DNA of 64,000 nucleotides, taken from the NCBI GenBank assembly GCA_003973385.1, contig QNYK01000062.1:1-64000 (forward strand), written 5' to 3'. This document shows positions 116 through 53,675 of the stretch, piece after piece (the stretch's first letter is position 1; each line of letters opens with the position of its first letter). Below the pieces are notes generated by a model. It saw nothing but the letters and a program-made list of their open reading frames with translations, searched no databases and was not told where the DNA came from. A program made the position numbers and the translations under genes. Source of the stretch: Bacillota bacterium. Its GTDB lineage: Bacteria > Planctomycetota > UBA8108 > UBA1146.

Positions 116-202
116 TGGTACCGGAGGTGGGACTCGAACCCACAAGACCCGAAGGTCAGCGGATTTTGAATCCGCCGCGTATGCCAATTCCGCCACTCCG
201 GC
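116..202 (-). tRNA. tRNA-Leu (anticodon CAA)
   Basis: Reverse complement GCCGGAGTGGCGGAATTGGCA...GCGGATTCAAAATCCGC...GGGTTCGAGTCCCACCTCCGGTACCA: acceptor stem, long variable arm, T-loop GTTCGAGTC, anticodon loop TTCAAAA (CAA), encoded CCA. Confidence 0.93.
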
Positions 203-1075: not shown

Positions 1076-2140
1076 CTATTCGCTGGCGGCTTCGGACCTG
1101 TCACCGTCTTCATCTCCGACGGACTCCCTCATCGAGGTGTCTGCCTGGAGATTCTTGAGGCGGTAATAATCCATCACTCCCAGGTGGCCTTTTCGGAAGG
1201 CTTCCGCGATGGCCAGAGGAACTTCGGCCTCTGCGAGAACCAGTTTGGCTCTGTTATCGGCGATCTTGGCGATATTTTCCTGTTCCTGTGCAACAGCCAG
1301 TGCACGGCGCTTCTCGGCCAGCGCCTGTGCCACCCGTTTGTCTGCTTCCGCCTGCTCTGCTTGTAATTTCGCACCGATGTTTTCACCGACATCGACATCT
1401 GCGATGTCGATGGAGAGGATCTCGAATGATGTTCCCGAGTCCAGGCCCTTCTCCAGCACCTTTTTCGACATCAGATCGGGATTGGCCAGCACATCCTTGT
1501 GAGTAGTTGCCGATCCGATGGTGGTGACGATTCCTTCGCCCACGCGAGCGATGATGGTCTCTTCCGTGGCTCCTCCCACCAGGCGCGCCAGGTTGGTGCG
1601 GACCGTGACCCGTGCTCGTGCCCGCAACTGGATGCCATCTCCTGCCACTGCGTCGACCGTGGTGCGTGTCCCTTCGCGCGAAGGAGCATCGATGACCTTC
1701 GGAAGCACGCTGGTTCTGACCGCTTCGAGCACATCTCTCCCGGCCAGATCGATGGCGGCAGCCTGGTCAAAGGTGAGTCCGATGTTCGCCTTGTGGGCAG
1801 CGACCAGCGCTTGAGTCACTCGACGAACACTGCCCTTGGCCATGTAGTGTGCTTCGAGCTTGTTTGTATGAACATCTTTGATGCCCGCCTTGGTGCACAT
1901 GATCAGGCTATCGACGATGACTCTCGGGCTCACCCTTCTGAGCCACATTCCGATGAAGGCAAAGACGCTGATCTTGACACCGGAGGAGAGCGCCTGGATG
2001 TACAATCTTCCAAACGTGATGAAGAAGATGAACAGCACCACTCCCATGGCGATCACGATGAAGAGCAGTACCACATTTACAATTGGGTTGCTCGTTTGCC
2101 CCAGCATGAGTGTCGTTGCTAGATCCGGAATACTACCCAT
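1076..2140 (-). CDS. floA: Flotillin-like protein FloA
   Basis: 354 aa; N-terminal TM, SPHF-like core ([31 protein letters not shown]...), Ala/Glu-rich flotillin coiled coil ([28 protein letters not shown]); adjacent to NfeD genes. Confidence 0.93.
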
Positions 2141-2176
2141 CGCGAACTCCTGTCCGACGGCCTTGCCGTCATGATT

Positions 2177-2656
2177 CTAATCGTCTTGAGATTCTTCAGT
2201 GGATTTTCTGACAAGGATGCGGTTGCCATCGGATTGAATGATGACGACCGAATCCCCCTTCTCTATGTAGCCTGTATTGGCGACCACATCGAGGCGCCTT
2301 CCAGCGATCAGGGCGATCCCTGCGGGTCGAAGATCTGACATCACCAGGCCTCGTTGGCCGATCATTTCCTGTGCGGAACGCACATCGTCACCGAGCGCGT
2401 CCTCGTCAAGGCTTGTATGCAGACCGATCTTTTTGACCCAGAACTTGAAGAGTGCCACGGTGTAGAGAACCGTGAAGCCCGCGCAGATGACCGCGAGCCA
2501 TCGATAATCCTGGAGCCATAACTCCCAGATGGAGTAGCCGATGCAGAGCACGGCAGCGATCGCAAGAATCCCGCCGCTGGGGATGAACACTTCCAGGAAC
2601 AGGAGCGTCAGGCCAGCGATGCAGAGCACCGAAAGAAGCCACCATTCCATTCCCAT
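2177..2656 (-). CDS. NfeD-like integral membrane protein (short form)
   Basis: 159 aa; TM segments plus C-terminal OB-like domain (GQRGLVMSDLRPAGIALIAGRRLDVVANTGYIEKGDSVVIIQSDGNRILVRK). Confidence 0.85.
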   Translation of the reverse strand: MGMEWWLLSVLCIAGLTLLFLEVFIPSGGILAIAAVLCIGYSIWELWLQDYRWLAVICAGFTVLYTVALFKFWVKKIGLHTSLDEDALGDDVRSAQEMIGQRGLVMSDLRPAGIALIAGRRLDVVANTGYIEKGDSVVIIQSDGNRILVRKSTEESQDD

Positions 2657-2658
2657 GC

Positions 2659-4290
2659 TCAGGCCTCCTCGACGACAGCACGGACGACGATGCGGTTTCC
2701 CTCGACCTCGACCACTTCAACCAGGCTCTGCTTCTCGATGTAGCCTCCATCGGAGACCACATCGAAGGGAGTGCCCTCGAAATCTACTTTTCCGGCTGGG
2801 TGCAGATCCTGGAGAGGAGATCCTCGTTGACCCACCTCCAGTGCGTTGCCCTCGAATCCAGGCGAGGCGATGGCCTCATCGTCGGTGGCCAGAGTAGATT
2901 TGTCGATGAGAGCCCCGTCTTGCGAGACGCGCCCGGGAAGGATGTAAGAGACGATCAGCAGTGCCAGCAGTCCGGTGGTCAGCCCGCCAGCAACCAGCAG
3001 CGAATCCTCGCTCAACTGGCGCAGGCTCAGTGTCGCATCGACGGGCTGGTAGCACAGACCCAGAGAGACGCACACGACGACCAGGCCGAGGATTCCAGAG
3101 ACTCCGAAACCCGGGATCACGAACAGTTCGACCGCCAGCAGCCCCAGGCCCAGTCCAAACAGGGAGAGTTCGACCCATCCGACATTTCCGTCGGCAAAGC
3201 TGCTGAGCAGGAACACGCACAGGAAGCCGAGCGAAAGGGCGGCACCGAGTCCGACACCGGGCAATTTGAACTCGACCACCAGTGCCAGAGCAGCACCGAA
3301 GATCAGCAAGAACTTGATGAAACGGCCCCAGTCTCGAAACGCATCGAGGGCAAACCCGCCGGGAGTGCCGATGCGTTGATGCCCGAGAGCCTCATCGGCG
3401 GTCAGCACTCGCATCTGCGTCAGGCCGTAATCGGTCAGCAGTTGCTCTCGGGTCAGGCAGATGTGGGAGATGAAGCCGTACTCGAAGGCTTCCTTTTCAT
3501 CGATGGTGAGGATCTCTCCGCGCTCGACGATCCGCTGCGTCTGGGCGCTATTGCGTTCATGCTCCGGCAGGTCCTGAAACTCCTGCTCGGTCAGGTAGAG
3601 GGTACGACCCTCTGCCGTACGGACCTTCAGTACCGTGATCTCCTTCGTCACCATCGCCTCAGCCAGGGCGATGGGGTAGCCGCGATCACGCGCCCAGCGA
3701 CGCATGTCTGCCCTGACCGTGGTCTGGATCTTCTCCGGCAACTCATTGCCGAAGATATCGATCGGTTGCACATCCCCGATGCGGCTATTGTCTCCCATCA
3801 CCAGGTTACGGCACGCCAGAGCCACCATGGTGCCACCGCTGTAGGCCTGCTGGCCATTGGGGACCCAGGCAAAGGTCTCGACACCCTTCTCGGTCAGATT
3901 GTCGATGGACTCGGCCAGTTTTCGGCTGGCATCGATGGTTCCGCCGGGGGTCGAGAGCTGCACGATGACGATTCGAACTTCACGCTCGAGAAGTTCGGCG
4001 ATGGTGGCATCGAAGCGTCGGACGACCGAATCGTCGATCTGCTGATCGATGGAGACCACCACAGCGACATCCCTGAGCGATTTATTCTCGGGGTCGGACC
4101 CGGATTCCTGGGCCATGACGATGCTGTGACTGCACAGCGCCGCCAGCAGCGACCAGGTAAAGAAAAACCGACCCCAACTGGGCGGTCGGCAGGTTCGAAA
4201 GGTCAAGGCGTCTCTCTTCCCGGCTGCGACAGGCACGCACTTCGGATCCTCAAGTCCCCGCATTGTCAGGAGATACCCATGCCTAGGCAA
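2659..4290 (-). CDS. NfeD/ClpP-class membrane-bound serine protease (long NfeD)
   Basis: 543 aa; ClpP-like N-terminal domain (VVVSIDQQIDD...IVQLSTPGGTIDAS), TM bundle and NfeD C-terminal OB domain. The true start may be internal. Confidence 0.88.
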   Translation of the reverse strand: MPRHGYLLTMRGLEDPKCVPVAAGKRDALTFRTCRPPSWGRFFFTWSLLAALCSHSIVMAQESGSDPENKSLRDVAVVVSIDQQIDDSVVRRFDATIAELLEREVRIVIVQLSTPGGTIDASRKLAESIDNLTEKGVETFAWVPNGQQAYSGGTMVALACRNLVMGDNSRIGDVQPIDIFGNELPEKIQTTVRADMRRWARDRGYPIALAEAMVTKEITVLKVRTAEGRTLYLTEQEFQDLPEHERNSAQTQRIVERGEILTIDEKEAFEYGFISHICLTREQLLTDYGLTQMRVLTADEALGHQRIGTPGGFALDAFRDWGRFIKFLLIFGAALALVVEFKLPGVGLGAALSLGFLCVFLLSSFADGNVGWVELSLFGLGLGLLAVELFVIPGFGVSGILGLVVVCVSLGLCYQPVDATLSLRQLSEDSLLVAGGLTTGLLALLIVSYILPGRVSQDGALIDKSTLATDDEAIASPGFEGNALEVGQRGSPLQDLHPAGKVDFEGTPFDVVSDGGYIEKQSLVEVVEVEGNRIVVRAVVEEA

Positions 4291-6460: not shown

Positions 6461-6536
6461 TGGTGGAGCTGAGGGGGCTCGAACCCCTGACCTCCTGACT
6501 GCCAGTCAGGCGCTCTCCCAGCTGAGCTACAGCCCC
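6461..6536 (-). tRNA. tRNA-Ala (anticodon GGC)
   Basis: Reverse complement GGGGCTGTAGCTCAGCTGGGAGAGCGCCTGACTGGCAGTCAGGAGGTCAGGGGTTCGAGCCCCCTCAGCTCCACCA; anticodon loop CTGGCAG; G3:U70 identity pair. Confidence 0.96.
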
Positions 6537-6745
6537 AATGATATCCCCGGAGGGGCCGTTGAAGTGGCTGTTGCCGATGAATCAGCAGCCGCCGCCCGGT
6601 TCCTCCGCCAGGATCTCCAGAGGATAGCCCGGTGCACTCTTGGGTCAAGGGAACCGATTGTCGCCGTACCCTCTGGCACCTACGATCATGCGTTCCTGGG
6701 AGACCGGCTGACTGGTCGGGTAATGCCCTGGGATCGAGGAGGCCC

Positions 6746-9445
6746 TTGTCGGTCGATCTACTGCAACTGGAACGCCGCTGGCGGGAGCACTGGCTCGCGA
6801 ATCCACCCATCTCGCCGATTCAACCCGACTCCGGCGATGCTCACTCACCAGCGGATGGCGAGTCGAACACCGATGCGGGCAGCGTCACGGAGTCTGTTCC
6901 TGAAGATCCTTCAGTCGACGAGACAGCATCCGACGAGACAGCATCCGACGAGACAACATCCGACGAGACGGCTTCGGATGATTCATCCGAGGCAGTGGCC
7001 GTTGACGATGAGAAAACCGAAGCGCCCGAGGTTCAGGAGACCACCGCCGAGGAGACTCGAGGTGGTGACATCAGCGATGATGACTCTGCTGCGGATGACT
7101 CTGCTGCGGATGACTCTGGCGAATCTTCACAGTCTTCTGACGATCAACCTTCACGTCCCTTCTTCTGTCTGGATATGTTTCCCTATCCATCTCTCGACGG
7201 CTTCAGCGTCAATCAACTCAGGGGCATCGCCATCAACGATGTGGTGGCGAGGTATCAGCGATCTCGAGGACGTGAAGTGTTCCGTCCGATGGGTTGGGAC
7301 TCTTTTGGTGTTTCCATCGAGGAGGAAGCGCGAGCCGCGAATATTCCACCGCAGCAGGTTGTCGAGCGAGGCATCCAGAAGATGAGAGACCAGTTGCATT
7401 ACTTCGGTGCAATGGTGCACTGGGATCACGAACTCAACAGTTCCGATCCAGAGTGTTATCGCTGGTCTCAATGGATCTTCCTGAAACTCCACGAAAAGGG
7501 GCTGGTGCGCTACGAAAATGGCTGGAAGGTCGCCATCACGGATTACGCCGAGTCGCTGCACTCGGGATTGAAACAACTCAAATGGCCTGCTCGCACCAAA
7601 CTGCTGCAGAGGAACTGGATCGGACGCCGCGAAGGGACCCGCCTGACCCTCAAGGCCAGCGCTGAGTTGCTCGATGGCTGGGACGAACTCGATGTCTTCT
7701 CGTGGCGCATAGATGCCCTTGCTGAAGCGACCTTCGTGGTGCTTTGCCCGGAGCATCCGCTGCTGGAGAAGATCGTCGATCCGATTCAGAAGGAAGATGT
7801 GGAGCAGTACCTCGAAACGTGCGGCAGCCTCAGCGAACGGGAACGGATCGTCGGACGCGGAAGTGCGGATGGAGTCCCGACCGGCGGATACTGCCTGAAT
7901 CCAGTCACTCTCGATAAGATGCCGATCTGGGTCAGCAGTTATGTGCTACCAGAGATTCGTTTCGGAGCGATCCTCGGCATTCCTTCTGCACATCCAGAGC
8001 ACAAGGAATTTGCCAACAGTTTTGGACTGCCGACGAGTCGGGGCCAGTTGAAACACGGCAGAAGAAGGCGTCGCTCAGGACGTCGCAGGGGAGGCGATGG
8101 ATCGGACTCTTCACGGTCGATGCAAGCATCGCTGGAGGCGCGCGATCTGGTCAAGTCGCATATCGACTGGAAGTTGCACGACTGGGCATTCGAGCGCCAG
8201 AGAGTCTGGGGCGAACCGATACCCATCGTTGAATGTGCAGAGTGCGGCCAGGTGCCGGTACGAGAGGATCAACTTCCCGTGCAGCTTCCTGAGATGGACC
8301 AGTTGAAGGCTCCGGTCGATGGTGAAAGTGGACTCTCTCAGTACGAGGAGTGGATCCAGACCGAGTGCCCCGAATGCGGCGGGTCCGCCAGGCGATGTAC
8401 CGATACGATGCCGGACTGGATCGCTTCCTGCTGGACCCATCTCCGGTCCCTCAACCCCGGACTCGAGGGACAGATCGCCTCGCCGCGGCAGCTGGCCCAC
8501 TGGACTCCGGTGAACCTCTGTGTCGGCGGTATCGAGCATGCTGAGTTACACCTGCTCTATGTCAGATTCGTGAGCCACTTTCTCAAGGAACTGGGAATCA
8601 CCCAGCGGCGCGAACCGTTCCGGAGGCTTTTCAATCAGGGCCGTATCCGTGCCCCCGGTGTCGTGGATGAAGTGGATCCAACCAGCGCCCACAGGGGGCC
8701 CAGGGTGCTCGCCGAGGATTTCCTGGAACAGTACGGTGCCGATGCGATGAGGCTCCACCTGTTGTTCCTCGGTCCTCCTCAGGACCATGCAGAATGGAAT
8801 GAAGAGGGGTTGCGTGGCTGCGCCCGATTCTTGCAACGAACCCACGAAATGATTCTTCACCGCCACGGCAAGGGACGCTTCGTGAGCCGTAATGTACTGG
8901 TTGCCAAGCACCGCCTCGTCAGGAGGGTGAGTCGGGCGATTCGAAATTTCCGCCTCAACAAGGCGATCAGCGCCTTCATGGAATTCGTGAAGTTGCTGCG
9001 AGGAGAGAACCTCAGTATCGAGGAGGTCGACCGACAGACTCTCAAGACATTTGTCGTGCTGCTGGCTCCCTTTGCGCCTCACATGGCTCACGAGTTGTGG
9101 CAGGAGATCGGCGAGACATCCTCGCTGGATCAGGAGCCATGGCCAGATCATAGTGAAGAGTTGCTCGAACCTTCGGAGGTCTCGCTCGCCGTGCTGGTCA
9201 ACGAGAAGATCGTGGATCGGATCACTGTGGATCTGGATGCACCCAAGACTCAGGTGATCGAGCAGGCGCTGAAACTGAAATCTGTCCAGGCAAGGACCGG
9301 CGGGCGTCCTGCAGATCGCGTCGTGCATGTCCCTGATCGATTGCTCAAGTTGATCTATTCAGATGTCATAACAGGTGCCGCTTCAGAGTCACCGGAAGCC
9401 GCATCCGATGCTGGATCGACCGATCAGAAGGCCGATCAGAGCTGA
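6746..9445 (+). CDS. Divergent leucyl-tRNA synthetase-like protein, probably non-catalytic
   Basis: ORF 6632-9445; likely start TTG at 6746 after GAGGAGG. LeuRS landmarks retained: CLDMFPYPS, FRPMGWDSFG, LLQRNWIGRREG, DWAFERQRVWGEPIPIV, CVGGIEHAELHLLYVRF, FNQGRIRAPG, FLEQYGADAMRLHLLFLGP, VLLAPFAPHMAHELW, C-terminal VNEKIVDRITVDLDAP. Signature motifs are altered (see findings). Confidence 0.88.
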   Translation: MSVDLLQLERRWREHWLANPPISPIQPDSGDAHSPADGESNTDAGSVTESVPEDPSVDETASDETASDETTSDETASDDSSEAVAVDDEKTEAPEVQETTAEETRGGDISDDDSAADDSAADDSGESSQSSDDQPSRPFFCLDMFPYPSLDGFSVNQLRGIAINDVVARYQRSRGREVFRPMGWDSFGVSIEEEARAANIPPQQVVERGIQKMRDQLHYFGAMVHWDHELNSSDPECYRWSQWIFLKLHEKGLVRYENGWKVAITDYAESLHSGLKQLKWPARTKLLQRNWIGRREGTRLTLKASAELLDGWDELDVFSWRIDALAEATFVVLCPEHPLLEKIVDPIQKEDVEQYLETCGSLSERERIVGRGSADGVPTGGYCLNPVTLDKMPIWVSSYVLPEIRFGAILGIPSAHPEHKEFANSFGLPTSRGQLKHGRRRRRSGRRRGGDGSDSSRSMQASLEARDLVKSHIDWKLHDWAFERQRVWGEPIPIVECAECGQVPVREDQLPVQLPEMDQLKAPVDGESGLSQYEEWIQTECPECGGSARRCTDTMPDWIASCWTHLRSLNPGLEGQIASPRQLAHWTPVNLCVGGIEHAELHLLYVRFVSHFLKELGITQRREPFRRLFNQGRIRAPGVVDEVDPTSAHRGPRVLAEDFLEQYGADAMRLHLLFLGPPQDHAEWNEEGLRGCARFLQRTHEMILHRHGKGRFVSRNVLVAKHRLVRRVSRAIRNFRLNKAISAFMEFVKLLRGENLSIEEVDRQTLKTFVVLLAPFAPHMAHELWQEIGETSSLDQEPWPDHSEELLEPSEVSLAVLVNEKIVDRITVDLDAPKTQVIEQALKLKSVQARTGGRPADRVVHVPDRLLKLIYSDVITGAASESPEAASDAGSTDQKADQS
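6916..6975. repeat. 4 x 15-bp tandem repeat encoding (S)DETASDETASDETTSDETAS
   Basis: Units cgacgagacagcatc / cgacgagacagcatc / cgacgagacaacatc / cgacgagacggcttc. Confidence 0.95.
7079..7117. repeat. About 2.6 x 15-bp tandem repeat (gatgactctgctgcg) encoding DDSAADDSAADDS
   Basis: Direct reading of 7079-7117. Confidence 0.9.
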
Positions 9446-9616: not shown

Positions 9617-10810
9617 TTGAAGGACTACCATCCAAATCGCGTTGCACTGACCATCTTCGTGGCCTTTGCGCTGCTCTGGACCGTGTCCATCTCATCGATG
9701 GCCACGGATCGGGTCGCGACCGCCGAGGTGACATCCAGCACCGTGGATCACACTTCACACCAGCAGCAAATCGTCGCGACCATCCAGGATGAGCTGGATG
9801 TGGTGGTCAACGCCGATGTCAGTGACTTCGAGGTCGGTCCTGAAACGAGTCCCGTGGTCGAGATCTCGAGCCAGATTCTCGCGGAAGAACGCGCCAGGAT
9901 CATGCGCGAACTGGATCTATCCAGAGATGGCTTGAAGCGTTGGGTCGGTAACGAGATCGATCAGACGCGACAGAAGATCGAAGCCCTGGATTCTCGCATC
10001 GAAGCGCGGATTGACGCGATGACTCCGGAAGTGTTGCCAGTACAGCAACAGTATGTTCCCGGCAATCACCGAGACAAGGTGGAGCGGATGATCTATCCAG
10101 TGGTGCAGCTGAGAGGCAACGGTACCGTTGGAAGTGGCGTCGTGCTCAGCAGTGTTCAGGTGAATGAAAACCAGTGGGCGACCTGGATCGTGACCGCATA
10201 CCATGTCGTTGAAGAAGTGCGTGATTTCTCCAGCGATGAGGTGGTTGTTCGCGAGATCAGGTTCTTCGATCCCGATCTCGGCCGACTGGGGAGCGAGATC
10301 CACGAGGGTGTGGAGATCGCCTCGTTAGCCTCCTCCGACCTTTCTCTGGTGCGAGTCCACTTGGCCGAGAGGTGGGCCTACCTCGCAATTCCTGCGAGCG
10401 AGAAAGCGTGTCTCCAGTTGTCGGTGTTCGACAGCGTGTATGCCGTCGGTTGCCCGCTGGGAAATCAGCCGCTTCCGACCATCGGAGAGATCTCGTCACA
10501 GTACAAGCCAGTCGCCGATGAGGTGTTCTGGATGGTCAGTGCGCCGACCTTCTTCGGCAACTCCGGCGGTGGAATCTTCCTCGCTGGCGATGGCAGACTC
10601 GTCGGCATCAGCAGCATGATCTACACCTACGGCAAGAGGTCTCCGATGGTGGTACCTCATATGGGACTGTTCGTGCCCCTTCAGACGGTACGCTCCTGGC
10701 TGCGCAGGGAGGGTTTTGCGCACCTGATAGGGGATCCCGGGCCGCTGACGCCAGTTCCTGCCGCCAGCAGCCCCGAGCAGGCCAAAAGCAGCGTTTCCGG
10801 GTCGTTTTGA
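9617..10810 (+). CDS. Exported/membrane-anchored trypsin-like serine protease (S1C-like)
   Basis: 397 aa; N-terminal hydrophobic segment, coiled-coil region, GSGVVLSS, TAYHVV (His), SDLSLVRV (Asp), TFFGNSGGGIF (Ser). Confidence 0.8.
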   Translation: MKDYHPNRVALTIFVAFALLWTVSISSMATDRVATAEVTSSTVDHTSHQQQIVATIQDELDVVVNADVSDFEVGPETSPVVEISSQILAEERARIMRELDLSRDGLKRWVGNEIDQTRQKIEALDSRIEARIDAMTPEVLPVQQQYVPGNHRDKVERMIYPVVQLRGNGTVGSGVVLSSVQVNENQWATWIVTAYHVVEEVRDFSSDEVVVREIRFFDPDLGRLGSEIHEGVEIASLASSDLSLVRVHLAERWAYLAIPASEKACLQLSVFDSVYAVGCPLGNQPLPTIGEISSQYKPVADEVFWMVSAPTFFGNSGGGIFLAGDGRLVGISSMIYTYGKRSPMVVPHMGLFVPLQTVRSWLRREGFAHLIGDPGPLTPVPAASSPEQAKSSVSGSF

Positions 10811-10994: not shown

Positions 10995-12230
10995 TTGATT
11001 TCGATGAACACTGGTTCCCCCGCCGGAAGATTATTCGCCGGTCTCATGCTGCTGATGGCATTTCTGATCTGGAGTACTCCTGTCCAGCAGGCCGATGCTA
11101 CCCAGCGCCTCCAGGATCCCGCGCCGGTTACTCTCCCGGACAGGGAGACGAAGCAAGCCGCAGTGGATGACATCCTGGGTGAGGACATTCTCGGTATTGC
11201 GAAGAGTGATCCTGCTGCGATGGAAGTGATTCAGAAGTACATCGACGCGGTTGGCGGACGCGAGGCGATGCTGTCGATCACTGACCGTGTCGAGCGGTTC
11301 AAGAACACGAAGATCGATCCGACCAATGAGACCGTGATGAAGATGGCTCGTTTCCTCAAGCGGACCGGTGAAGGTGTGCTGATGATCCGAGAAGAATGGC
11401 AACTGCCAGGTCTTGGTCTGACCAAGAACAATGAGCCCCTCAACTTCGTGCAGGTATATGATGGAGAAAAGGCATGGGTCAAGGCGATGGGGGCTGTGTC
11501 TCCGCTCGCTGGCAAGACTCTCATCGTGTTTGTCTGGGATAAACACATCGATGATTTCTTCATCACCTTCCAGGACAATGGCTACATCGCCAGTCTGAAG
11601 GAAGACCAGACGGTCCTCGGAACTGCCTGCAAGATGGTTGAACTGAAGTCCTTTGCGGGTAACCAGGTGCAGATGTTTGCGTTCTCCGACGAGGACGGGC
11701 TGTTGTTGCGCAAGACCTGGAACGAAGGTCAGGCACCGGCAGTGATCAAGAAGGAAGTATTCTTCAGCGAGTACACTCGAATCCGGTTCAGCGATGATCG
11801 AAATCGCTGGATCAAGATTCCTACCATCAAGAAGATCTTCGAGGACGGTGAACTGAGCCTCGAACAGAACTACGATGAGATCGCACTCAACTCAGGAGTC
11901 TCTCCGACGCTATTTGGTCGTCCTGAGGGTCGATCTTTTGATGAAGTGCGACGTGAGCGCGAAGCGGCTCGCGCTGCCGAGCAGGAGGCGTCCGCAGGTG
12001 ATGCGGAGGCTGGTGAGAAGAAGCCAGTGTGGGAAAGGCCCAAGCCGAAGCCGAAACCAGTGTGGGAAAAGCCGAAGCCGAAACCAGTGATAAAACCGGA
12101 CATTCTGCCAAAGCCAGATCCGAAACCCGATCCAAAGCCAAAACCAGATCCGAAGGTTTTTGATCTCGATTCAAACAACATTCCGGATTTGCTCCAGCGC
12201 GAATCTGCTCTGGTCGATCACTTGTGTTAA
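10995..12230 (+). CDS. Secreted protein with LolA-like N-terminal domain and Lys-Pro-rich C-terminal stretch
   Basis: 411 aa; signal peptide (RLFAGLMLLMAFLIWSTPVQQADA), VIQKYIDAVGGREAMLSI..., then KPKPKPVWEKPKPKPVIKPDILPKPDPKPDPKPKPDPK. Confidence 0.7.
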   Translation: MISMNTGSPAGRLFAGLMLLMAFLIWSTPVQQADATQRLQDPAPVTLPDRETKQAAVDDILGEDILGIAKSDPAAMEVIQKYIDAVGGREAMLSITDRVERFKNTKIDPTNETVMKMARFLKRTGEGVLMIREEWQLPGLGLTKNNEPLNFVQVYDGEKAWVKAMGAVSPLAGKTLIVFVWDKHIDDFFITFQDNGYIASLKEDQTVLGTACKMVELKSFAGNQVQMFAFSDEDGLLLRKTWNEGQAPAVIKKEVFFSEYTRIRFSDDRNRWIKIPTIKKIFEDGELSLEQNYDEIALNSGVSPTLFGRPEGRSFDEVRREREAARAAEQEASAGDAEAGEKKPVWERPKPKPKPVWEKPKPKPVIKPDILPKPDPKPDPKPKPDPKVFDLDSNNIPDLLQRESALVDHLC

Positions 12231-16529: not shown

Positions 16530-19500
16530 GTGGCCAACTCTGACCCATCCAGAACAGACCGGCCCATCGCAGGCCGATTTTTCCCTGCAGCCTTGCTCGG
16601 GCGTGGCGGCATGGGTGAAGTGTGGCACTGCCGAGACCGGGTGGCCGTCGAGGATGTGGCTCTCAAGCGAGTGGCTCCCGAGGATTCATGCGGGCCGGTC
16701 GGGGATCGCCATCGACGGGAGTTCGATCACCTGACCCGACTGCGTCATCCCTCGATCCTGGCGGTGAAGGAGTATGGCATCGATCCCCGGGATGGGGCTC
16801 GGTGGTTCAGCAGCGAGGTGCTTGCAGGTCCCGTCTCTACCGAGTTGATCGGCACCCTTTCACTGGCTGACTGGCTGGAGATGAGTCGACGATTTCTTCG
16901 CGCGCTCGCATTCATGCATCGAAATGGGTGGGTACATGGAGACATCAAATCGGACAATGTCCGCCTTCGACGGCCGCTGAGACCGGGCGATTCACCCGAT
17001 CCGGTGCTGCTCGATTTCGGGCTGTGCCAGCAACAGGGTCAGCCTCCAGAAGAAAAGATCCTGGGTACTCCTCACGCGATGCCTCCCGAGCAATGGCTCG
17101 GTGAAAGACCGGATGCGCGGGGGGATATCTATTCGTCGGGTGTGCTGCTCTATCAGTGGTGGTGCGGTCATCTTCCATTCGAAAAGAAGGATCGCTCTCA
17201 AATGGGGAAGGCCCATCTGCAGGAGGATCCCGCGCCGCTGAAGGAGTTCAGAGGTGGGCTTCCAGAGGCTGCCATCGTCATCATCGACAAGATGCTCAAG
17301 AAGCGCCCCGATGATCGACCGCACGAAGCGGGTGAAGTACTCGCGTTGCTGGAGCGAGTGTTTCCTTCGGCTGAGGAAGGTTGTGTGGTGGAGTCGGGGC
17401 CCTCATTGGTGGCTCAACTCAGATATCCAGGAGTCGGTGAGGAATTACCTCGATTGGTGCTAGATCAGATCTTTCGAGTCAAGGATGTCGGTGGAGTCGT
17501 CCTTCATCTTCATCGGCGCGAAGGGGATCGACGCAAGATCTCGAATCGTGTCGAGGTGGAACTGATGTCACGGGGACTTCCGGTGCTGGGCGTTGACGCC
17601 GCTACCGATGATCCAATTCAGGATGTCATCAGGTCAATACCCCCTGGATCCACAAGCGTGGTGATCAAGGTCGATGATCCTGACTCCGCGACCCAGACGA
17701 TGCAGCAAGCGATGCAGACGACCGAAGTGCTGGGCTGCAAGTTGATCTGGTGGCTTCACTGTTCGATTTCTCCTGGTGGATTTCTGGGAGAACTCCTCGC
17801 CATGCGCTCGCACCGGGTGATCTGCACCGACGATGGGGCTCCCATCGACCTCGCTGAGTGGCTGGCCATGGCGCTGCCAGGCGCCAACGTGGGATCAAAA
17901 CTGCATCATCGTCTGCAGTGCTGGGGTGCAGGAAGTCCCTCCATCTGGGAGCGCATCCTGATCGGGAGGGTCGTTGCTGGTGATCTGGCCCACGACGGTC
18001 GGCGCTGGATCTGGCAGCAACCGAACTCCCATCCGGAAGATCGCTGGCGGGATCGGGTTGTCGAGCAGGTATTGCACCTCGAGGAAAACAATCGGTCAAT
18101 CCTGGAAGCCCTCGCCATCGTCGGCGCTCCTGCAACAGCATCAGAAGTGGCCACTGTTGCGGGCATCGATCGTGGACTGGTTCCGTCGGTGGTCTCGGGG
18201 CTGGTTCAGAAGAACTGGATTCGCCTCGATGGGGCACTTCACTGGCGAGAGCCGTTTCAGGCAGAAGGGGTGCTGGTGGCGATCGATCCCGGTCGCAGGA
18301 AGCTGATGCACGAGAGGGCAACGGGACTTCCTCAGCGCGATGCTCTGGATCGAGTGCGCCATGAGATGAGTGCGGGGAATACCGATCAGGCGGCTCTGTT
18401 GCTGGAACCGTGGTTCGAAGATGAGGCGAAGCGCACCAGAGATGCTGTCAGGTTGGCCAGTGTGCTGACACCGCTGGTCGATCTGCTCAGGGACCACACT
18501 CAGGCCAGGTGGGCAGATTTGCTGGGGCAAGTCGAGGATCAACTGGGAAACGCGGCCCAACGAGATCGTGCATGGCGAGTTGCAGCCAACTGGCATCAGC
18601 GCGGCACCCTGACCGCGTTGCGATTGGCACGCCTGAGAGCCCACACGACCCGTCGCGATGGAGATCCCCAGCAGGCGCTAGAGATTCTCGACGACGCCTC
18701 TGAATCGTCGCCCAGTCAAGAACACGAGATCGAGCGTGAGCGGATCCTGGTCGCGATAGAACGGTCTCGTATCCTCAGAGCACTGGCGCGCCGAGGAGCA
18801 ACATCGGCTCCGATACTGCAGGTGGAGGTGGGTGAAGACGCACAGGATCTGGTCGAAGAGGCTCTCCTGGAACGTTGTCGATGTGCACTGGCAAGAGGCG
18901 CAAGGCTACAGGCCATCGACCTCGCGCGTCAGGTGATCGATTCCCCAGCAGCAGAAATCCGGGTGCGCCACATCGTGGAAGCGCAGTGTCTTCGTGCGCG
19001 GGCGATGGAGGACCTGAGATCCTTGCGGATCTGGAGTCGCTGGCACCGTCACCTGTGCCTGAAGGAGTTGAGGCGAGAGGGTTCCATCGTCGCGGGGATC
19101 CAAGCTGCTGAAGCATCGCTTCGACTGGGAGAGGGAGCGCTGGCACTCTCTGAAGTCACCGGACTGATCGAGCAAGCGAGACTTCATTGCCGGGGACAGT
19201 TGCCCCGGGCCCTGTTGCTGATGGCTCGCTGTGAGTCGGGTGCGGGCTGGATACGCGCTGCTTCTCGTTGCCTCGAGGAAGCCCTGACCCTTGACGGATC
19301 TGCAGGAATCGTCGCCTGGGAGGGGAATCTGCTCGTCGCAGCTTCAGAATGGGCGGCGGGTCGTCCCAGCACCGCACGTCAGATTCTCGAAGCCACACCC
19401 GTGCATCGAGCACCTCATGAGAAGGAGTCGGTCGACGTCCATGGGCGTCACCTGATTCTCGAGAGCCGATGTGCATTTTCGATGGGGAATCCCTCCGAAG

Positions 19501-20147
19501 CGCTGAGCATCCTGGATCGGGGCATCACTTCATTGCGACTGCGCGGAACGGATCGAGACCTCGCGCCGTTACGTCGAGAGCGCGCCAGCTTGCTGGAGCG
19601 CCTCGGACAGAGTGCGATGGCCCAGACGGAAAGGCGCCGGATCGCCGCCGGAGTGATTCCGGAACCGGGAACCGATCCGGAGCCCGTCGGATTTCGAAGG
19701 GCCAGAAAAGCTCTGGATAGACGCGGAGTGCTGTTGAGGCGACGTCAGCATCAGGAGGCCAACAGGTACCTCGAAGTGGCCGCGCTCGACGCCCTGCGTC
19801 TGAGGGCCCAGCCGATGTCGACCTTGCTGACGCTCGAGCGGAACAACGAAGCGGCCCCGGCGGAAAAGGAGCGAATCGCTCTCAGTGCCTGGAGGAGGCT
19901 GTTGAAACTGGAATCACGTGAGGGCCACGCGGCCGTGTTGCTGTGGTGGGCGAAGGCCAGGGAAGAAGCGGGAGACGATGTGGCGGGCCAGCGGCTGCGC
20001 CAGGCGGCTCTCCGCGAGGTCGATCGATGGCGGCTGCATAGCCCGGCAGGGACACGGTGGCGAGAACTGGCAACGCTGCTCGGCGTCGCAGACCTTGCCT
20101 CGGGATCAGTTTTCGACATGGGTGGCCGAAGCACCTCACTGGCGTAG
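16530..20147 (+). CDS. Large multidomain Ser/Thr protein kinase: N-terminal kinase, degenerate STAND-like central module, helical repeat C-terminus
   Basis: 1205 aa; ALLGRGGMGEVWHCRD, VALKRV, WVHGDIKSDN, LLDFGLC, GTPHAMPPEQW, DIYSSGVLLYQW; later Ala/Leu/Arg-rich helical repeats. Confidence 0.85.
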   Translation: MANSDPSRTDRPIAGRFFPAALLGRGGMGEVWHCRDRVAVEDVALKRVAPEDSCGPVGDRHRREFDHLTRLRHPSILAVKEYGIDPRDGARWFSSEVLAGPVSTELIGTLSLADWLEMSRRFLRALAFMHRNGWVHGDIKSDNVRLRRPLRPGDSPDPVLLDFGLCQQQGQPPEEKILGTPHAMPPEQWLGERPDARGDIYSSGVLLYQWWCGHLPFEKKDRSQMGKAHLQEDPAPLKEFRGGLPEAAIVIIDKMLKKRPDDRPHEAGEVLALLERVFPSAEEGCVVESGPSLVAQLRYPGVGEELPRLVLDQIFRVKDVGGVVLHLHRREGDRRKISNRVEVELMSRGLPVLGVDAATDDPIQDVIRSIPPGSTSVVIKVDDPDSATQTMQQAMQTTEVLGCKLIWWLHCSISPGGFLGELLAMRSHRVICTDDGAPIDLAEWLAMALPGANVGSKLHHRLQCWGAGSPSIWERILIGRVVAGDLAHDGRRWIWQQPNSHPEDRWRDRVVEQVLHLEENNRSILEALAIVGAPATASEVATVAGIDRGLVPSVVSGLVQKNWIRLDGALHWREPFQAEGVLVAIDPGRRKLMHERATGLPQRDALDRVRHEMSAGNTDQAALLLEPWFEDEAKRTRDAVRLASVLTPLVDLLRDHTQARWADLLGQVEDQLGNAAQRDRAWRVAANWHQRGTLTALRLARLRAHTTRRDGDPQQALEILDDASESSPSQEHEIERERILVAIERSRILRALARRGATSAPILQVEVGEDAQDLVEEALLERCRCALARGARLQAIDLARQVIDSPAAEIRVRHIVEAQCLRARAMEDLRSLRIWSRWHRHLCLKELRREGSIVAGIQAAEASLRLGEGALALSEVTGLIEQARLHCRGQLPRALLLMARCESGAGWIRAASRCLEEALTLDGSAGIVAWEGNLLVAASEWAAGRPSTARQILEATPVHRAPHEKESVDVHGRHLILESRCAFSMGNPSEALSILDRGITSLRLRGTDRDLAPLRRERASLLERLGQSAMAQTERRRIAAGVIPEPGTDPEPVGFRRARKALDRRGVLLRRRQHQEANRYLEVAALDALRLRAQPMSTLLTLERNNEAAPAEKERIALSAWRRLLKLESREGHAAVLLWWAKAREEAGDDVAGQRLRQAALREVDRWRLHSPAGTRWRELATLLGVADLASGSVFDMGGRSTSLA

Positions 20148-47153: not shown

Positions 47154-47976
47154 TCTGCCGGGAGGTGGGGAACTCGATCCGGTCATCGACCTCATCGAAG
47201 GCGCGGGTGGGTTGTTGCTTGAGTGCCAGAAGAGTTCGCGATCCATTGAAAAAAAGGGATTTCGAGATCTCGTCACCGACGCCGATCTCCGTTCGGAGAG
47301 GTATGTGGTCGCTGGCCTGAATCGGTTGTACCCCGAGGATGCGATTCTCGCTGAGGAGGCTGGAGGCGAACTCCCTTCCAGCGGCCGGTGCTGGATCGTG
47401 GATCCACTCGATGGCACCACTAACTATTCACATCGGCACCCGTTCTTCAGCGTTTCTGCTGCGCTCGTGGATGATGAAGGGCCAGTTGCCTGTGTGACCC
47501 ACTCACCGATTCTCGCCGAGACATGGTGGGCCATCCGTAATCGTGGTGCCTGGAAATGTCGTGGAACCGTTCTGCAAGGTGAGCCACTGACGCTGAAGTC
47601 TACGGCACCACTGGGTGATTGCCTGCTGGCTACCGGGTTCAGCTATCAGAGAAAAGAACTGGATCACGGCGCACTGGATGTCTTCGAGTCCTTGTTGAGG
47701 CGAGCGCGAGAGATCCGTCGCGGTGGCAGTGCCTGCCTGGATCTGGCATTCACCGCAGAAGGTATCTTTCAGGGCTTCTGGGAGTTTTATCTCCAACCCC
47801 ACGATGTCGCCGCGGGAGCCCTGCTGATCCGCGAAGCGGGTGGTGTGGTGACCGATGGGGTCGGGGGAGACGACTGGTTACTGGGGGGGAGCATCGTTGC
47901 GGCAACGGCTGAACTCCATCCGGTACTTCTGGAAGTGGTTCGCCCCGCTGTCCCTCCCACCGAGGGGGATCGATGA
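47143..47976 (+). CDS. Inositol monophosphatase family protein
   Basis: AILAEEAGGE, WIVDPLDGTTNYSHRHPFFSVS, GGSACLDLAFTAEGIFQGFWEFYLQPHDVAAGALLIREAGG; likely GTG at 47143. Confidence 0.9.
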   Translation: MPLDLPGGGELDPVIDLIEGAGGLLLECQKSSRSIEKKGFRDLVTDADLRSERYVVAGLNRLYPEDAILAEEAGGELPSSGRCWIVDPLDGTTNYSHRHPFFSVSAALVDDEGPVACVTHSPILAETWWAIRNRGAWKCRGTVLQGEPLTLKSTAPLGDCLLATGFSYQRKELDHGALDVFESLLRRAREIRRGGSACLDLAFTAEGIFQGFWEFYLQPHDVAAGALLIREAGGVVTDGVGGDDWLLGGSIVAATAELHPVLLEVVRPAVPPTEGDR

Positions 47977-50900
47977 GCACCTCGTCGGGTCGCCCGTTGC
48001 GAGTTCGTGGGGCCAACGAAAACAACCTTCGGAACCTCGATGTCGAGATCCCCAGGGAGCGACTGGTGGTCGTCACGGGAATCAGTGGCTCAGGTAAATC
48101 GACACTCGCACACGGCATCATCTGTCGTGAAGGGCAGCGTCGTTTCGTCGAGAGTCTCAGTTCCTATGCTCGTCAATATCTGGGTCGACTCGATCGGCCT
48201 CGCGTCGAGGCGGTCGAGGGCCTCAGCCCGACCATCTCTATCGATCAGAAAACCATCTCGCGAAACCCCAGGTCCACGGTGGGTACCATCACAGAGATTC
48301 TCGATCATCTTCGACTCCTGTATGCGCGGCTCGGAACACCGCACTGTCCCAGCTGTGGGGATGTCATCGAGGGTCGCAGTCGAGAGCAGATTGTCCAGCA
48401 CAGTTGGCATCAGTTGGCAGGGCAGGAGGTGCTGGTGTGCGCTCCCATCGTTCTGGAGCGAAAGGGCGAGTATCGAAAGGAGATTGAGCAACTCCGCGAG
48501 CAAGGATTTGCTCGGGTTCGCATCGATGGAGACCTGATGCGCCTGTCCGATCCGATTTCGTTGGCTCGTTACGAGCGTCACACGATTGAGGTCGTACTCG
48601 ATAAATTACGGCTGGTGGACGGCAAGCGTGGCAGGCTTGCTGAAGCAGTCGAGAAGGCTCTCACCATCTCAGATGGGCTGGTGACCATCGTGGCTGGAGA
48701 AGTGGCCCATCTCTCCTCCAGCAGATTTGGTTGCCCGACATGCTCGATTTCCTTGCCAGAACTGGAGCCCAGGCTCTTCTCCTTCAACAGTCCACAGGGT
48801 GCGTGTCAAAGATGCGATGGACTCGGCAGAAGGAGGTCTCCTTCGGAACACACCATGGTCAAGGATGCGTCCCTTTCGATCATGGATGGAGCTCTGTTCC
48901 TGAGGCGCCAGGGCAAATCGATCAGGGGCCTTTCTGTGGCCTGGTCGGTGCTGGAGAAAGCAGCCACTCTCGAGCGGATTTCTCTTCAAAGGCCATGGAA
49001 GAAGTTGACCCCCCGAGCACGCCAGTTGCTACTCGAAGGTGCCGAGTCGGTGGGTGGTAAGAGTGACTGGCCAGGTCTGATTCCCCTGGTCGAGGCTGCC
49101 TATGATCTGCACGGGGGGCGAGAACTGGAACGGCACATGCCTCGCACGGAGTGCAATGCATGCGGGGGGACGCGGTTGCAGGAGATGCCTCGTGCCGTTC
49201 GCTACCGCGGTCACGGAATCGATCAGATCTGCTCGATGACGGTAGACGATGCCCACGGCTTCTTCAGTGATCTCGACCTGGATGACAGGGAGCGTCGCAT
49301 CGGCCAGTCACTGTTTCCGGAGATCCAGTCGCGACTGGAATTCCTGTCCAGAGTAGGCCTCGGTTATCTCGCCCTCGATCGGTCTGCCGATACTCTCGCA
49401 GGTGGAGAAGCGCAACGCATCCGGCTGGCGAGCCAGCTGGGGAGTGGGCTTCGTGGGGTGCTGTATGTGCTCGACGAACCTTCGATCGGTCTGCATCCCG
49501 CGGATAATAGAGCGATGCTCGAGATCCTCAGGGGTTTGAGGGATCTGGGCAACTCGGTCCTGGTGGTGGAGCATGATCGTGAAACCATCGAGAGTGCTGA
49601 CCACATCATTGATATCGGACCGGGTGCGGGTACTGCCGGTGGAGAACTGGTCGCCGAGGGGTCCGTGACGGCGGTTCGAAAGGTATCGCGCTCACTGACA
49701 GGTCAGTATCTCGCCGGCAACAAGAAGATCGCAATCCCCGCGAGTCGCAGGAAATCTAGGAGCTGTTTGCGGATTCGTGGCGCGCGGCTGCACAACTTGC
49801 AGGATGTCGATGTTGAGATTCCGCTGCAATCTCTGGTCGTGATTACCGGAGTGAGCGGGTCAGGGAAAAGTACTCTCATCCAGGGAGTACTGCAGCCAGC
49901 AGTCGCAGAATACCTGGATCTGGTGACGGAACCTCCCGGAGATCACGACGGCGTCGATGGACTCGATCAGATCGACAAGTTGATTCGCATCGATCAGAAC
50001 CCCATCGGACGAACCCCCCGCTCCAATCCCGGAACCTACACCAAGGTGTTCGATGATATTCGCGATCTGTTCTCGCGAACCGCAGAAGCTCGTGCCCGGG
50101 GGTGGAAGAGAGGGCGTTTCTCTTTCAACGTCAAGGGGGGTCGATGCGAGGCGTGCGAAGGTGCTGGGGTCATCACCATAGGAATGCAATTCATGGCCGA
50201 CATCGAGGTGGTGTGCGAGGAGTGCAATGGCACCCGCTTCAATGCCGAGACCAGGTCGGTGCGCTGGCGCGGCCACGACATCTCGGAGATTCTCGCGTTA
50301 TCGATCGAGGAGGCATCCTCGCTCTTTGAAGATGTGCCTCAGATCGACCGGACACTTCGAACCCTGCTCGATGTAGGACTCGGTTATGTTTCGCTGGGCC
50401 AGCCCAGCACCACTCTATCTGGTGGCGAAGCTCAACGGGTCAAACTGGCGACGGAATTGCGGAAGAAGAGCACCGGAAGGACGCTGTATCTGCTCGATGA
50501 ACCGACCACAGGTTTGCACTTTGCAGATATCGATAACCTGCTCGGTTGCCTGCATGCTCTCGTCGACAGGGGCAATACGGTCGTGATCATCGAGCATTGT
50601 CTCGATGTGGTGAAACAGGCGGACCATGTCATCGATCTGGGCCCCGCGGGAGGTGCCCAGGGTGGCAGAGTTCTCAGTTGTGGTACTCCTGAGCAGTTGG
50701 CCCGGCTCGGAAGTGCGACCGGGATCGCGCTCTCTGGAGAGATGGGTGGAAAGCGTCGCCCTGCTGCCCGATCCGGAAAGAAGAGGGGCTCTGGTTCGGG
50801 TGAACCCGCCGACAAGTTCCTGATTGTCGGCGCAAGACAGAACAACCTGAAAGATATACGGGTTGAAATCCCTGCCGGGGAGTTCACCGTCATCACAGGA

Positions 50901-53675
50901 CCCAGTGGATCGGGAAAGAGCACGCTGGCCTTCGATATTCTTTTCGCTGAAGGGCAGCGTAGATATATCGAGAGCCTATCGACCTATGCAAGGCGCTTCC
51001 TTGGCAGGATCGACCGACCAGAGGTGGACCGGGTCGAGGGGATCGCCCCGGCCATCGCCATCGATCAGAAAAACAGGGGCTCGAATCCTCGCTCGACGGT
51101 GGCCACCTCTACCGAGATCTATGACTACCTGCGGATCCTCTTCTCCAGGGCTGGAGAAGCGAGCTGCATCCATTGCGATTCGATTCTCGAGGCACACACC
51201 CCGGCGGCAGCCAGCGGCAAGATCCTGGAGGATCGAGCCGAGCAGCCGACCTTGCTGCTGGCGCCGCTGGATGCACCCTTTCCTTCGCCTGGAGAAGTGG
51301 CAGGGGAGGGCTACGCGAGGGTTCGTATCGATGCAGCGGTGAGTCGCCTCGATGAACTGGATTTTGATCATCCCTTCCCGGACGGTGCATCGGTAGAGAT
51401 CGTCGTGGACCGGCTCCGCCCGGCACGTTCGGGGCGTGTGCGTGTCTCTGAAAGTGTCGAGGAAGCCTATCGTAGAGGCGGAGATCGGTTGATTGTCGCC
51501 GATGCTGATGGCAAGGAGGTGGTTCGCTTCACTCGCAGACCATCGTGCCCCGATGGGCACATGATGCTTGTAGAGGACCTGTCCCCGAGGCTGTTCTCCT
51601 TCAATCACCACTCCGGTGCCTGTAACGCCTGCTCGGGGCTGGGTGTGCTGAAACAGGTCGATCCTCGACTGTTGATCACGAATCCTGAACGGCCACTCTT
51701 TTCGGGCGCGATGGATCACCGGCTCGGATCATGGATCGGTCGAAAGAGCGGCCGTGTCCGAAAGGTCATCGATGCGGCACTGGTGGCTCATGGATTTGAT
51801 CCCTCCAGTTCCGTCGATGAACTCGGCGAAGATGGATGGAAGGTGATTCTCGATGGTACGGGAGACCTCTCTTATCCAGTCAGATTCAGGACCCGGCGTG
51901 GAAGTGGGCGATTGCGACGGGTGACAGGCTCCACCTGGGAGGGACTCGTCGAACGAGTCTCCATCTGGCATCAACGCGCCAACTCGCCACGCTGGCGCCA
52001 TGCGATCGAAGAGCACTTGACGGTGCTCACCTGTCCTGGCTGTAGCGGTGGGCGTCTGAAACCGGAACTGCTGGCGGTTCGAATCGGCGGCGAAAACATC
52101 TCACAGCTCTGTGGCCGTACGGTTGATCAGGCCATCGAGTTCTTTGAACAGCTGGAGTTGACCGGTTATCGCCGAGAGGTGGCTGATCAGGTCAGGCTTG
52201 AAGTGGTCAGCCGTCTCTCCTTCCTGCAAAAAGTGGGGCTTGGATACATCGCACTGGATCGAGCCACGGAGACGCTCTCCGGTGGTGAAGCGCAGAGAAT
52301 TCGCCTCGCAACACAGATCGGCAACCAGCTGATGGGAGTGCTCTATGTCCTCGATGAGCCGACCATCGGACTCCATGCACGGGATGTCGATCGATTACTG
52401 GGGTCGCTGGCGGAGTTGCGGGATCTGGGCAACACGCTGGTCGTGGTGGAGCATGACGATAGAACCATTCGAAGTTGTGATCATGTCATCGATCTTGGAC
52501 CCGGAGCCGGAGTCCTCGGAGGGGAAGTGGTCGCCGAGGGTACGCCGGAGCAGATCATGAAGAATCCCCGATCTGCGACGGGGGCGTACCTCTCGGGTCG
52601 TGAGCAGGTCGCACAGATCGGTGCGCCCAGGAGTGGAGACGGTGGCGAGATCCGCATCATCGGGGCGACGGCTCACAACCTCAAGAATATCGATGTGTCG
52701 ATTCCAACAGGTGTCTTGACCTGTGTCACCGGAGTCAGTGGATCTGGAAAATCGACCCTCGTGATGGACATCCTGGCGAGGGAACTGGCGACCCGTCTCG
52801 CCGGCGCCAGGCCAGCAAGCGCAGCTCATGAGAAGATCGAGGGAGATGACGCTTTTGATGGACTGGGAGTGATCGATCAGCAACCTCTCGGTCGCACTCC
52901 AGCTTCCAACGCCGCCACCTACACCGGAGTCATGACTCCAATCCGGAGCCTCTTCGCGCGCACACACCTGGCACGTGTGCGAGGCTGGGGGCCGGGTCGC
53001 TTTTCATTCAATGTCGCGGGCGGGCGTTGCGAGGCGTGCGATGGAAAAGGTGGAGTGCTCATCGAGATGCACTTCCTCAGCGATGTGTGGATCCGATGCG
53101 AGGTTTGTCGTGGTCGACGCTATGAAAAAGAGACGCTGGAGGCGCGCTGGAAAGGATGCAGTATCTCCGATGTACTCGAGATGGATGTTCGAAAGGCACT
53201 TCAACTGTTCGAAGATATTCCAGCCATCGCAACGATGCTCCGGGCGCTCGATGAAGTGGGGCTCGGGTATCTATCGCTGGGGCAATCAGCGACAACCCTG
53301 TCAGGTGGTGAAGCTCAGCGAGTCAAACTCGCTTCTGAACTGGGCCGAAGAGCCAGAGGACGGCGCATCTACATCCTCGATGAGCCGACCACCGGATTGC
53401 ACTTTTCCGATGTTCGCCTGCTTACCCGGATGCTTCACAAACTCGTCGATCGCGGAGACACGGTGATTGTCATCGAGCATGATCTGGACCTGATCGCCTG
53501 CGCTGATCATGTCATCGATATGGGGCCAGAAGGTGGAGATGCCGGTGGCCAGGTGGTGGTCGCGGGAACTCCCGAGAAAGTCGCCAGATCGCGCAAAAGC
53601 CATACCGCGAAGGTACTCAAAGAAGTGCTCCGGAGGAAGGCTCGAACGGATGCCACCTCAGCTCCGCCGCACTAG
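47973..53675 (+). CDS. uvrA: Tandem-fused (double-length) excinuclease ABC subunit A
   Basis: 1900 aa; four Walker A motifs (GISGSGKST, GVSGSGKST, GPSGSGKST, GVSGSGKST), four signature motifs (LAGGE, LSGGE, LSGGE, LSGGE), four Walker B/D-loop motifs (LYVLDEPSIGLH, LYLLDEPTTGLH, LYVLDEPTIGLH, IYILDEPTTGLH), two GGRCEAC...C-EEC/C-EVC zinc modules. Confidence 0.96.
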   Translation: MSTSSGRPLRVRGANENNLRNLDVEIPRERLVVVTGISGSGKSTLAHGIICREGQRRFVESLSSYARQYLGRLDRPRVEAVEGLSPTISIDQKTISRNPRSTVGTITEILDHLRLLYARLGTPHCPSCGDVIEGRSREQIVQHSWHQLAGQEVLVCAPIVLERKGEYRKEIEQLREQGFARVRIDGDLMRLSDPISLARYERHTIEVVLDKLRLVDGKRGRLAEAVEKALTISDGLVTIVAGEVAHLSSSRFGCPTCSISLPELEPRLFSFNSPQGACQRCDGLGRRRSPSEHTMVKDASLSIMDGALFLRRQGKSIRGLSVAWSVLEKAATLERISLQRPWKKLTPRARQLLLEGAESVGGKSDWPGLIPLVEAAYDLHGGRELERHMPRTECNACGGTRLQEMPRAVRYRGHGIDQICSMTVDDAHGFFSDLDLDDRERRIGQSLFPEIQSRLEFLSRVGLGYLALDRSADTLAGGEAQRIRLASQLGSGLRGVLYVLDEPSIGLHPADNRAMLEILRGLRDLGNSVLVVEHDRETIESADHIIDIGPGAGTAGGELVAEGSVTAVRKVSRSLTGQYLAGNKKIAIPASRRKSRSCLRIRGARLHNLQDVDVEIPLQSLVVITGVSGSGKSTLIQGVLQPAVAEYLDLVTEPPGDHDGVDGLDQIDKLIRIDQNPIGRTPRSNPGTYTKVFDDIRDLFSRTAEARARGWKRGRFSFNVKGGRCEACEGAGVITIGMQFMADIEVVCEECNGTRFNAETRSVRWRGHDISEILALSIEEASSLFEDVPQIDRTLRTLLDVGLGYVSLGQPSTTLSGGEAQRVKLATELRKKSTGRTLYLLDEPTTGLHFADIDNLLGCLHALVDRGNTVVIIEHCLDVVKQADHVIDLGPAGGAQGGRVLSCGTPEQLARLGSATGIALSGEMGGKRRPAARSGKKRGSGSGEPADKFLIVGARQNNLKDIRVEIPAGEFTVITGPSGSGKSTLAFDILFAEGQRRYIESLSTYARRFLGRIDRPEVDRVEGIAPAIAIDQKNRGSNPRSTVATSTEIYDYLRILFSRAGEASCIHCDSILEAHTPAAASGKILEDRAEQPTLLLAPLDAPFPSPGEVAGEGYARVRIDAAVSRLDELDFDHPFPDGASVEIVVDRLRPARSGRVRVSESVEEAYRRGGDRLIVADADGKEVVRFTRRPSCPDGHMMLVEDLSPRLFSFNHHSGACNACSGLGVLKQVDPRLLITNPERPLFSGAMDHRLGSWIGRKSGRVRKVIDAALVAHGFDPSSSVDELGEDGWKVILDGTGDLSYPVRFRTRRGSGRLRRVTGSTWEGLVERVSIWHQRANSPRWRHAIEEHLTVLTCPGCSGGRLKPELLAVRIGGENISQLCGRTVDQAIEFFEQLELTGYRREVADQVRLEVVSRLSFLQKVGLGYIALDRATETLSGGEAQRIRLATQIGNQLMGVLYVLDEPTIGLHARDVDRLLGSLAELRDLGNTLVVVEHDDRTIRSCDHVIDLGPGAGVLGGEVVAEGTPEQIMKNPRSATGAYLSGREQVAQIGAPRSGDGGEIRIIGATAHNLKNIDVSIPTGVLTCVTGVSGSGKSTLVMDILARELATRLAGARPASAAHEKIEGDDAFDGLGVIDQQPLGRTPASNAATYTGVMTPIRSLFARTHLARVRGWGPGRFSFNVAGGRCEACDGKGGVLIEMHFLSDVWIRCEVCRGRRYEKETLEARWKGCSISDVLEMDVRKALQLFEDIPAIATMLRALDEVGLGYLSLGQSATTLSGGEAQRVKLASELGRRARGRRIYILDEPTTGLHFSDVRLLTRMLHKLVDRGDTVIVIEHDLDLIACADHVIDMGPEGGDAGGQVVVAGTPEKVARSRKSHTAKVLKEVLRRKARTDATSAPPH

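Follow-up and report, generated by a model that had tools for sequence, protein, structure and literature searches.

Could a leucyl-tRNA synthetase (LeuRS) gene persist in a bacterial lineage after the protein that it encodes has lost the motifs of aminoacylation? This question is raised by the gene at 6746..9445 (+) of the window, that is, the whole stretch of 64,000 nucleotides analysed here, which comes from an uncultured bacterium of the phylum Planctomycetota. Throughout the class to which this bacterium belongs, a protein with the LeuRS fold is retained under purifying selection without the HIGH, KMSKS and editing signatures, and its gene is found at the locus where genomes outside the class carry leuS.

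A LeuRS fold without its catalytic motifs

The gene starts, as the initial annotation gave it, with a TTG codon at 6746, ahead of which GAGGAGG is present at 6736-6742, and it encodes 899 amino acids. The claim that the protein has the fold of LeuRS was borne out by profile, domain and structure comparisons. The score is 581 bits with TIGR00396, the leuS_bact equivalog (cut-off 548), versus 94 bits with the archaeal LeuRS model, so the protein is not archaeal-type, and the Pfam domains PF13603, PF00133 and PF08264 are all present. The AlphaFold model (mean pLDDT 76.6) is in silico a LeuRS fold, whose best matches in the PDB are bacterial LeuRSs, with 2bte, the T. thermophilus LeuRS with bound tRNA-Leu, at the top (TM-score 0.71). 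Both the fold and the domain order of LeuRS are present. The N-terminal extension (residues 29-135; 6830..7150, +) is acidic and disordered, with pLDDT <50, and is partly made of 15-bp tandem repeats.

The motifs were read from the alignment to E. coli LeuRS, and all the readings quoted earlier for HIGH, KMSKS, the Thr-rich motif, GHDxRD and Zn-1 were found again. The HIGH position reads SVNQ (7205..7216, +). The former KMSKS loop, NQGRIRAPGVVDEVDPTSAHRGP (8633..8701, +), has low pLDDT; the loop reads NQGRIRAPGVVDEVDPTSAHRGPRV, and the KMSKS motif is gone. At the editing positions, SWRIDAL is found in place of the Thr-rich motif (7700..7720, +) and SAHPEH in place of GHDxRD (7985..8002, +), and both editing Asp residues, including Asp345, are replaced by His. 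The Zn-1 segment is deleted (YENGWK at 7511..7528, +), and the second Cys cluster (CAECG...CPECGG) is still present. The Zn-1 deletion, however, is restricted to genera near that of the window, and four relatives of the same order (G005, G007, G009 and G016) retain CxxC...CxxC. Similarly, the leucine pocket and the CP core GGIEHAELHLLY, the latter of which had been described as retained, are kept only in the window's order and are missing from other families. The anticodon-binding and C-terminal domains are indeed both kept. Since the same losses recur in relatives, they are far beyond chance, and the observation of a motif-stripped LeuRS-fold protein at this locus is confirmed as real.

Retention across the class beside an intact leuS

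Orthologues with the same losses, for which the initial annotation had proposed a profile search of related genomes, do exist. The paralogue was found in 29 of the 29 available genomes of the class, all metagenome-assembled and divided among six families (f1-f6), and HIGH and KMSKS are absent from every copy readable at those regions. The replacing sequences are unrelated and differ between families, and the loop is shortened in G024, G018, G021 and f3 members. In f1 and f2 the HIGH position is fixed as S[VA][NS]Q and the leucine pocket is retained (M40, F41, Y43, D80, H533 and H537 in E. coli numbers), with Tyr527 replaced by Cys in all members and Tyr499 variable, whereas the pocket is destroyed in f3-f6, that is, in four of the six families. 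The f3 paralogues are the most divergent. The f4-f6 paralogues L048, L052, L056, L058, L060 and L062 were noticed to carry a long acidic insertion of ~100-150 residues, which follows the second Cys cluster and precedes the C-terminal half of the catalytic domain. The dN/dS among close relatives is 0.05-0.18, close to that of the active LeuRS or a little higher. It was calculated by Nei-Gojobori on the entire reading frame, with the low-complexity extension included, and pairs in which dS was saturated were unusable. The paralogue is under purifying selection.

When 393 Planctomycetota genomes, the class included, were searched with the paralogue profile, no outsider scored like the well-conserved paralogues, and a very divergent f3-like copy outside the class could escape such a search. 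The top outsiders, G029 (552 bits) and G117 (536 bits), both have intact HIGH and KMSKS. A contig scan beyond the phylum, sensitive to close relatives only, gave matches in Planctomycetota alone, and the viral contigs searched contained no relative of the paralogue.

Which gene, then, encodes the housekeeping enzyme? A canonical leuS, sought elsewhere in the genome, is present and intact on contig C7 (G000:C7:81480-83900). Its product of 807 aa scores 985 bits and carries HVGH, KMSKR, TTRPDTLFG and GHDQRD; therefore, the window gene does not encode the housekeeping ligase. Intact leuS was detected in 24 of the 29 class genomes, and since the other five are only 79, 80, 80, 62 and 55% complete, its absence there is most simply an assembly gap. 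Among the active LeuRSs of f4-f6, the otherwise intact L049, L051, L053 and L055 have KMGKS in place of KMSKS, with ~30-40 additional residues ahead of it. The number of PF13603 matches per genome was also tried as a detector of a second LeuRS in the phylum and was not clean, as most planctomycetes, class or not, have two to three matches, probably because related synthetases match too.

We strongly infer from the sequences that the paralogue is non-catalytic; HVGH and KMSKS mutants of the LeuRS of another species, however, are crippled and yet retain residual activity (PMC10450160). The earlier proposal of a non-catalytic pseudo-synthetase instead of a housekeeping ligase is well supported by the intact leuS, the class-wide loss of the ATP signatures and the purifying selection.

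The locus and a probable history of replacement

A divergent tRNA-Ala(GGC) gene, located at 6461..6536 (-) in the window, serves as synteny marker for the leuS locus. Wherever the contig extends far enough (19 class genomes), a divergent tRNA-Ala lies upstream of the paralogue, and in the remaining 10 the contig ends within ~0.4 kb of the paralogue. Beyond the tRNA-Ala are FloA, two NfeD genes and, where seen, tRNA-Leu(CAA), while a trypsin-like protease gene, a gene of no known family and RlmN are found on the other flank. The corresponding window features, tRNA-Leu(CAA) at 116-202 (-) and the FloA/NfeD/NfeD cluster at 1076-4290 (-), belong to a gene neighbourhood that is conserved class-wide. 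In G026 the tRNA-Ala next to the paralogue has the anticodon CGC, not GGC (L108:3228-3303). Outside the class, a divergent tRNA-Ala(GGC) adjoins leuS in five families (12 genomes). Three of these leuS genes were checked (G046, G052 and G092), and all have intact HIGH and KMSKS; in G092 the order FloA-NfeD-NfeD-tRNA-Ala is followed by leuS. None of the active leuS genes examined in the class has an adjoining tRNA-Ala. Since tRNA-Ala stands beside leuS outside the class, synteny indicates that the pseudo-LeuRS gene occupies the ancestral leuS place.

Between the two divergent genes, an 18-bp block with two -35 boxes (6644..6661) is invariant in seven aligned f1 genomes. The candidate promoter on the gene side consists of TTGTCG (6658-6663) and TACGAT (6681-6686) with a spacing of 17 and 8/12 matches, and that on the tRNA side of TTGACC (6648-6643) and TATCCT (6626-6621); in an automatic promoter scan of the window the latter passed and the former did not. 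For its transcription the paralogue probably relies on a sigma-70-like promoter, which stands back to back with the tRNA-Ala promoter, likewise sigma-70-like. The upstream region contains no T-box or other Rfam element. Downstream, the exported trypsin-like protease (9617..10810, +) is a neighbour conserved class-wide, followed by a second conserved gene with no Pfam family (10995..12230, +). The protease was considered as no more than a candidate functional partner, because the neighbours on both flanks are conserved. Elsewhere in the window, two UvrA-like proteins appear by eye to be fused head to tail in one translated frame of 1900 aa (47973-53675, +), and the gene at 16530-20147 (+), which immediately precedes an aspartyl-tRNA synthetase-like gene, encodes 1205 aa whose N-terminal part resembles a Ser/Thr protein kinase domain, likewise by eye.

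In the LeuRS tree a branch with SH-aLRT 100 separates the paralogues from all other sequences, their exact position being uncertain owing to long branches, and the active LeuRSs of the class split into three places. Forcing the latter to be monophyletic lowers the log-likelihood by 394 and is rejected (p-AU 0.0002). The active f1 LeuRSs resemble those of f78, which does not belong to the class and to whose LeuRSs the active LeuRS of the window genome is 71-72% identical. As the active LeuRSs of the class lie elsewhere in the genome and do not form a single clade, the class probably acquired its active enzyme on more than one occasion. The simplest reading is that this enzyme has been replaced repeatedly by horizontal transfer while the resident gene was retained.

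Possible roles of the retained protein

Along the paralogue, conservation is above that of active LeuRSs in the anticodon-binding domain and below it in the catalytic half, and the former is now the best conserved part. It carries a paralogue-only signature (GRFVSRNVLVAKHRLVRRV at 8873..8929, +), G[KR][FY]VS[RL]xxLVxKHx[LM][IV], which every examined member of f1, f2 and f4-f6 has and which none of the active LeuRSs compared with them contains; f3 is without this FVSR signature. The orthology of the paralogues is based on synteny and the shared signature, and for f3 almost entirely on synteny. Among 20 paralogue-only conserved positions, 13 fall in this domain, which makes up ~1/6 of the compared length (~3e-6 by a hand binomial that assumes independent positions). 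The mean net charge around the first helix of the domain is +5.4 in paralogues vs. +0.3 in active LeuRSs. The C-terminal domain, which in LeuRS touches the tRNA variable arm (PMC5059758), is retained; with this and the new basic signature, RNA binding is the best guess for what the paralogue does.

We slightly favor, over all other readings together, a history in which the displaced, vertically inherited leuS now encodes a non-catalytic factor that binds tRNA or other RNA. The presence of another LeuRS would have freed the resident gene from aminoacylation, after which the use of ATP and editing would have been lost. In at least five of the six families, the anticodon-binding domain would then have become more basic and newly conserved, adjoining the kept C-terminal (tRNA-elbow) domain. 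Such a factor may hold a tRNA, with tRNA-Leu as the first candidate, or an mRNA or rRNA element, and could act as a chaperone or a translation regulator. As a precedent, tRNA mutants can be rescued by the C-terminal domain of human mitochondrial LeuRS, which has no catalytic activity and probably works as a chaperone (PMC4370040).

However, the kept tRNA-binding domains may reflect phylogenetic inheritance, and the conserved surface could bind protein rather than RNA. The protein might thus be a partner or scaffold whose conserved domain is an interface to the active LeuRS, another synthetase or the ribosome, as the confinement of a new invariant signature to one domain and the long acidic disordered regions of many members could suggest. 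Nevertheless, that signature is basic and located in an RNA-binding domain, and a fixed partnership with an active LeuRS swapped several times is unlikely, so we consider this account rather improbable. A shade less probable is a sensor that binds leucine or another amino acid without ATP and signals to a partner, in the manner of HisZ with HisG. The pocket residues kept in f1 and f2 in the face of the lost ATP signatures fit such a sensor, whereas the Cys at Tyr527 and the variable Tyr499 of these families argue against it, and with the pocket destroyed in f3-f6 it cannot be the class-wide role. Therefore, of the tRNA-Leu- or leucine-binding regulator envisaged in the initial annotation, leucine binding may apply in the window's order but is not the function of the class.

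The same kept pocket, together with the residual activity of the HVGH and KMSKS mutants mentioned above, could also be taken for an enzyme with altered motifs that forms adenylate slowly or ligates another substrate. This is quite unlikely, as both signatures and the loop are replaced by unrelated sequence that varies between families, and the loop length is even lost in some members. Least probable of all is a decaying relic: lineage-specific losses such as that of Zn-1 did follow the displacement of the resident gene, but this reading is already contradicted by the retention of the gene in all 29 class genomes, the low dN/dS, the new invariant signature and the kept promoter-like sequence.

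Compared with bacterial LeuS (TIGR00396), the window protein shares the domain order, the fold, the tRNA-binding domains and the ancestral place beside tRNA-Ala, and differs in the missing HIGH, KMSKS and editing signatures, the deleted Zn-1, the coexistence with an intact leuS and the new signature of the anticodon-binding domain. The parallel drawn earlier with Sulfolobales holds insofar as Sulfolobaceae LeuRS-I, like haloarchaeal LeuRS2, is an extra LeuRS of unknown function beside a normal one (PMC9437257). It is otherwise loose, since these duplicated LeuRSs, found in archaea and not in a bacterial class, both have some catalysis left according to a 2022 review: charging is reduced in both and editing in LeuRS-I, but leucyl-adenylate formation persists in LeuRS-I and weak charging in LeuRS2 (PMC9437257), whereas the paralogue has lost both ATP signatures. 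AgnB2 of Agrobacterium radiobacter K84 is also a second LeuRS in a bacterium, but an active, plasmid-borne and antibiotic-resistant one (PMC5059758). HisZ (HisRS-like) and SLIMP (SerRS-like) likewise have a synthetase fold and a role outside charging, HisZ being without amino-acid activation, but they derive from other (class II) synthetases and their partners are known (PMC9437257).

With its catalytic motifs lost, an intact synthetase present and selection acting, the paralogue fits the broad kind of non-catalytic synthetase-like proteins. In the open-access literature we found no LeuRS-derived pseudoenzyme with both ATP signatures lost, and no such protein reported in planctomycetes. To our knowledge, no synthetase-like protein has been described that is encoded in the ancestral place of a housekeeping gene since replaced. 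As a warning for annotation, the window protein and its order-level relative in G016 exceed the leuS_bact cut-off and would be named leucine--tRNA ligase. The LeuRS-derived pseudoenzyme family is apparently fixed in a whole bacterial class, and synteny points to the retired copy as the original gene. It is therefore a test case of how an essential translation enzyme may be freed for a new role once it has been horizontally replaced. That the class kept its original leuS as a dedicated RNA-binding factor that works without ATP and is of conserved importance, through several horizontal exchanges of the housekeeping LeuRS, is a tentative account to which we give a little less than an even chance; if true, it would be the reverse of the usual expectation that a displaced resident gene disappears.
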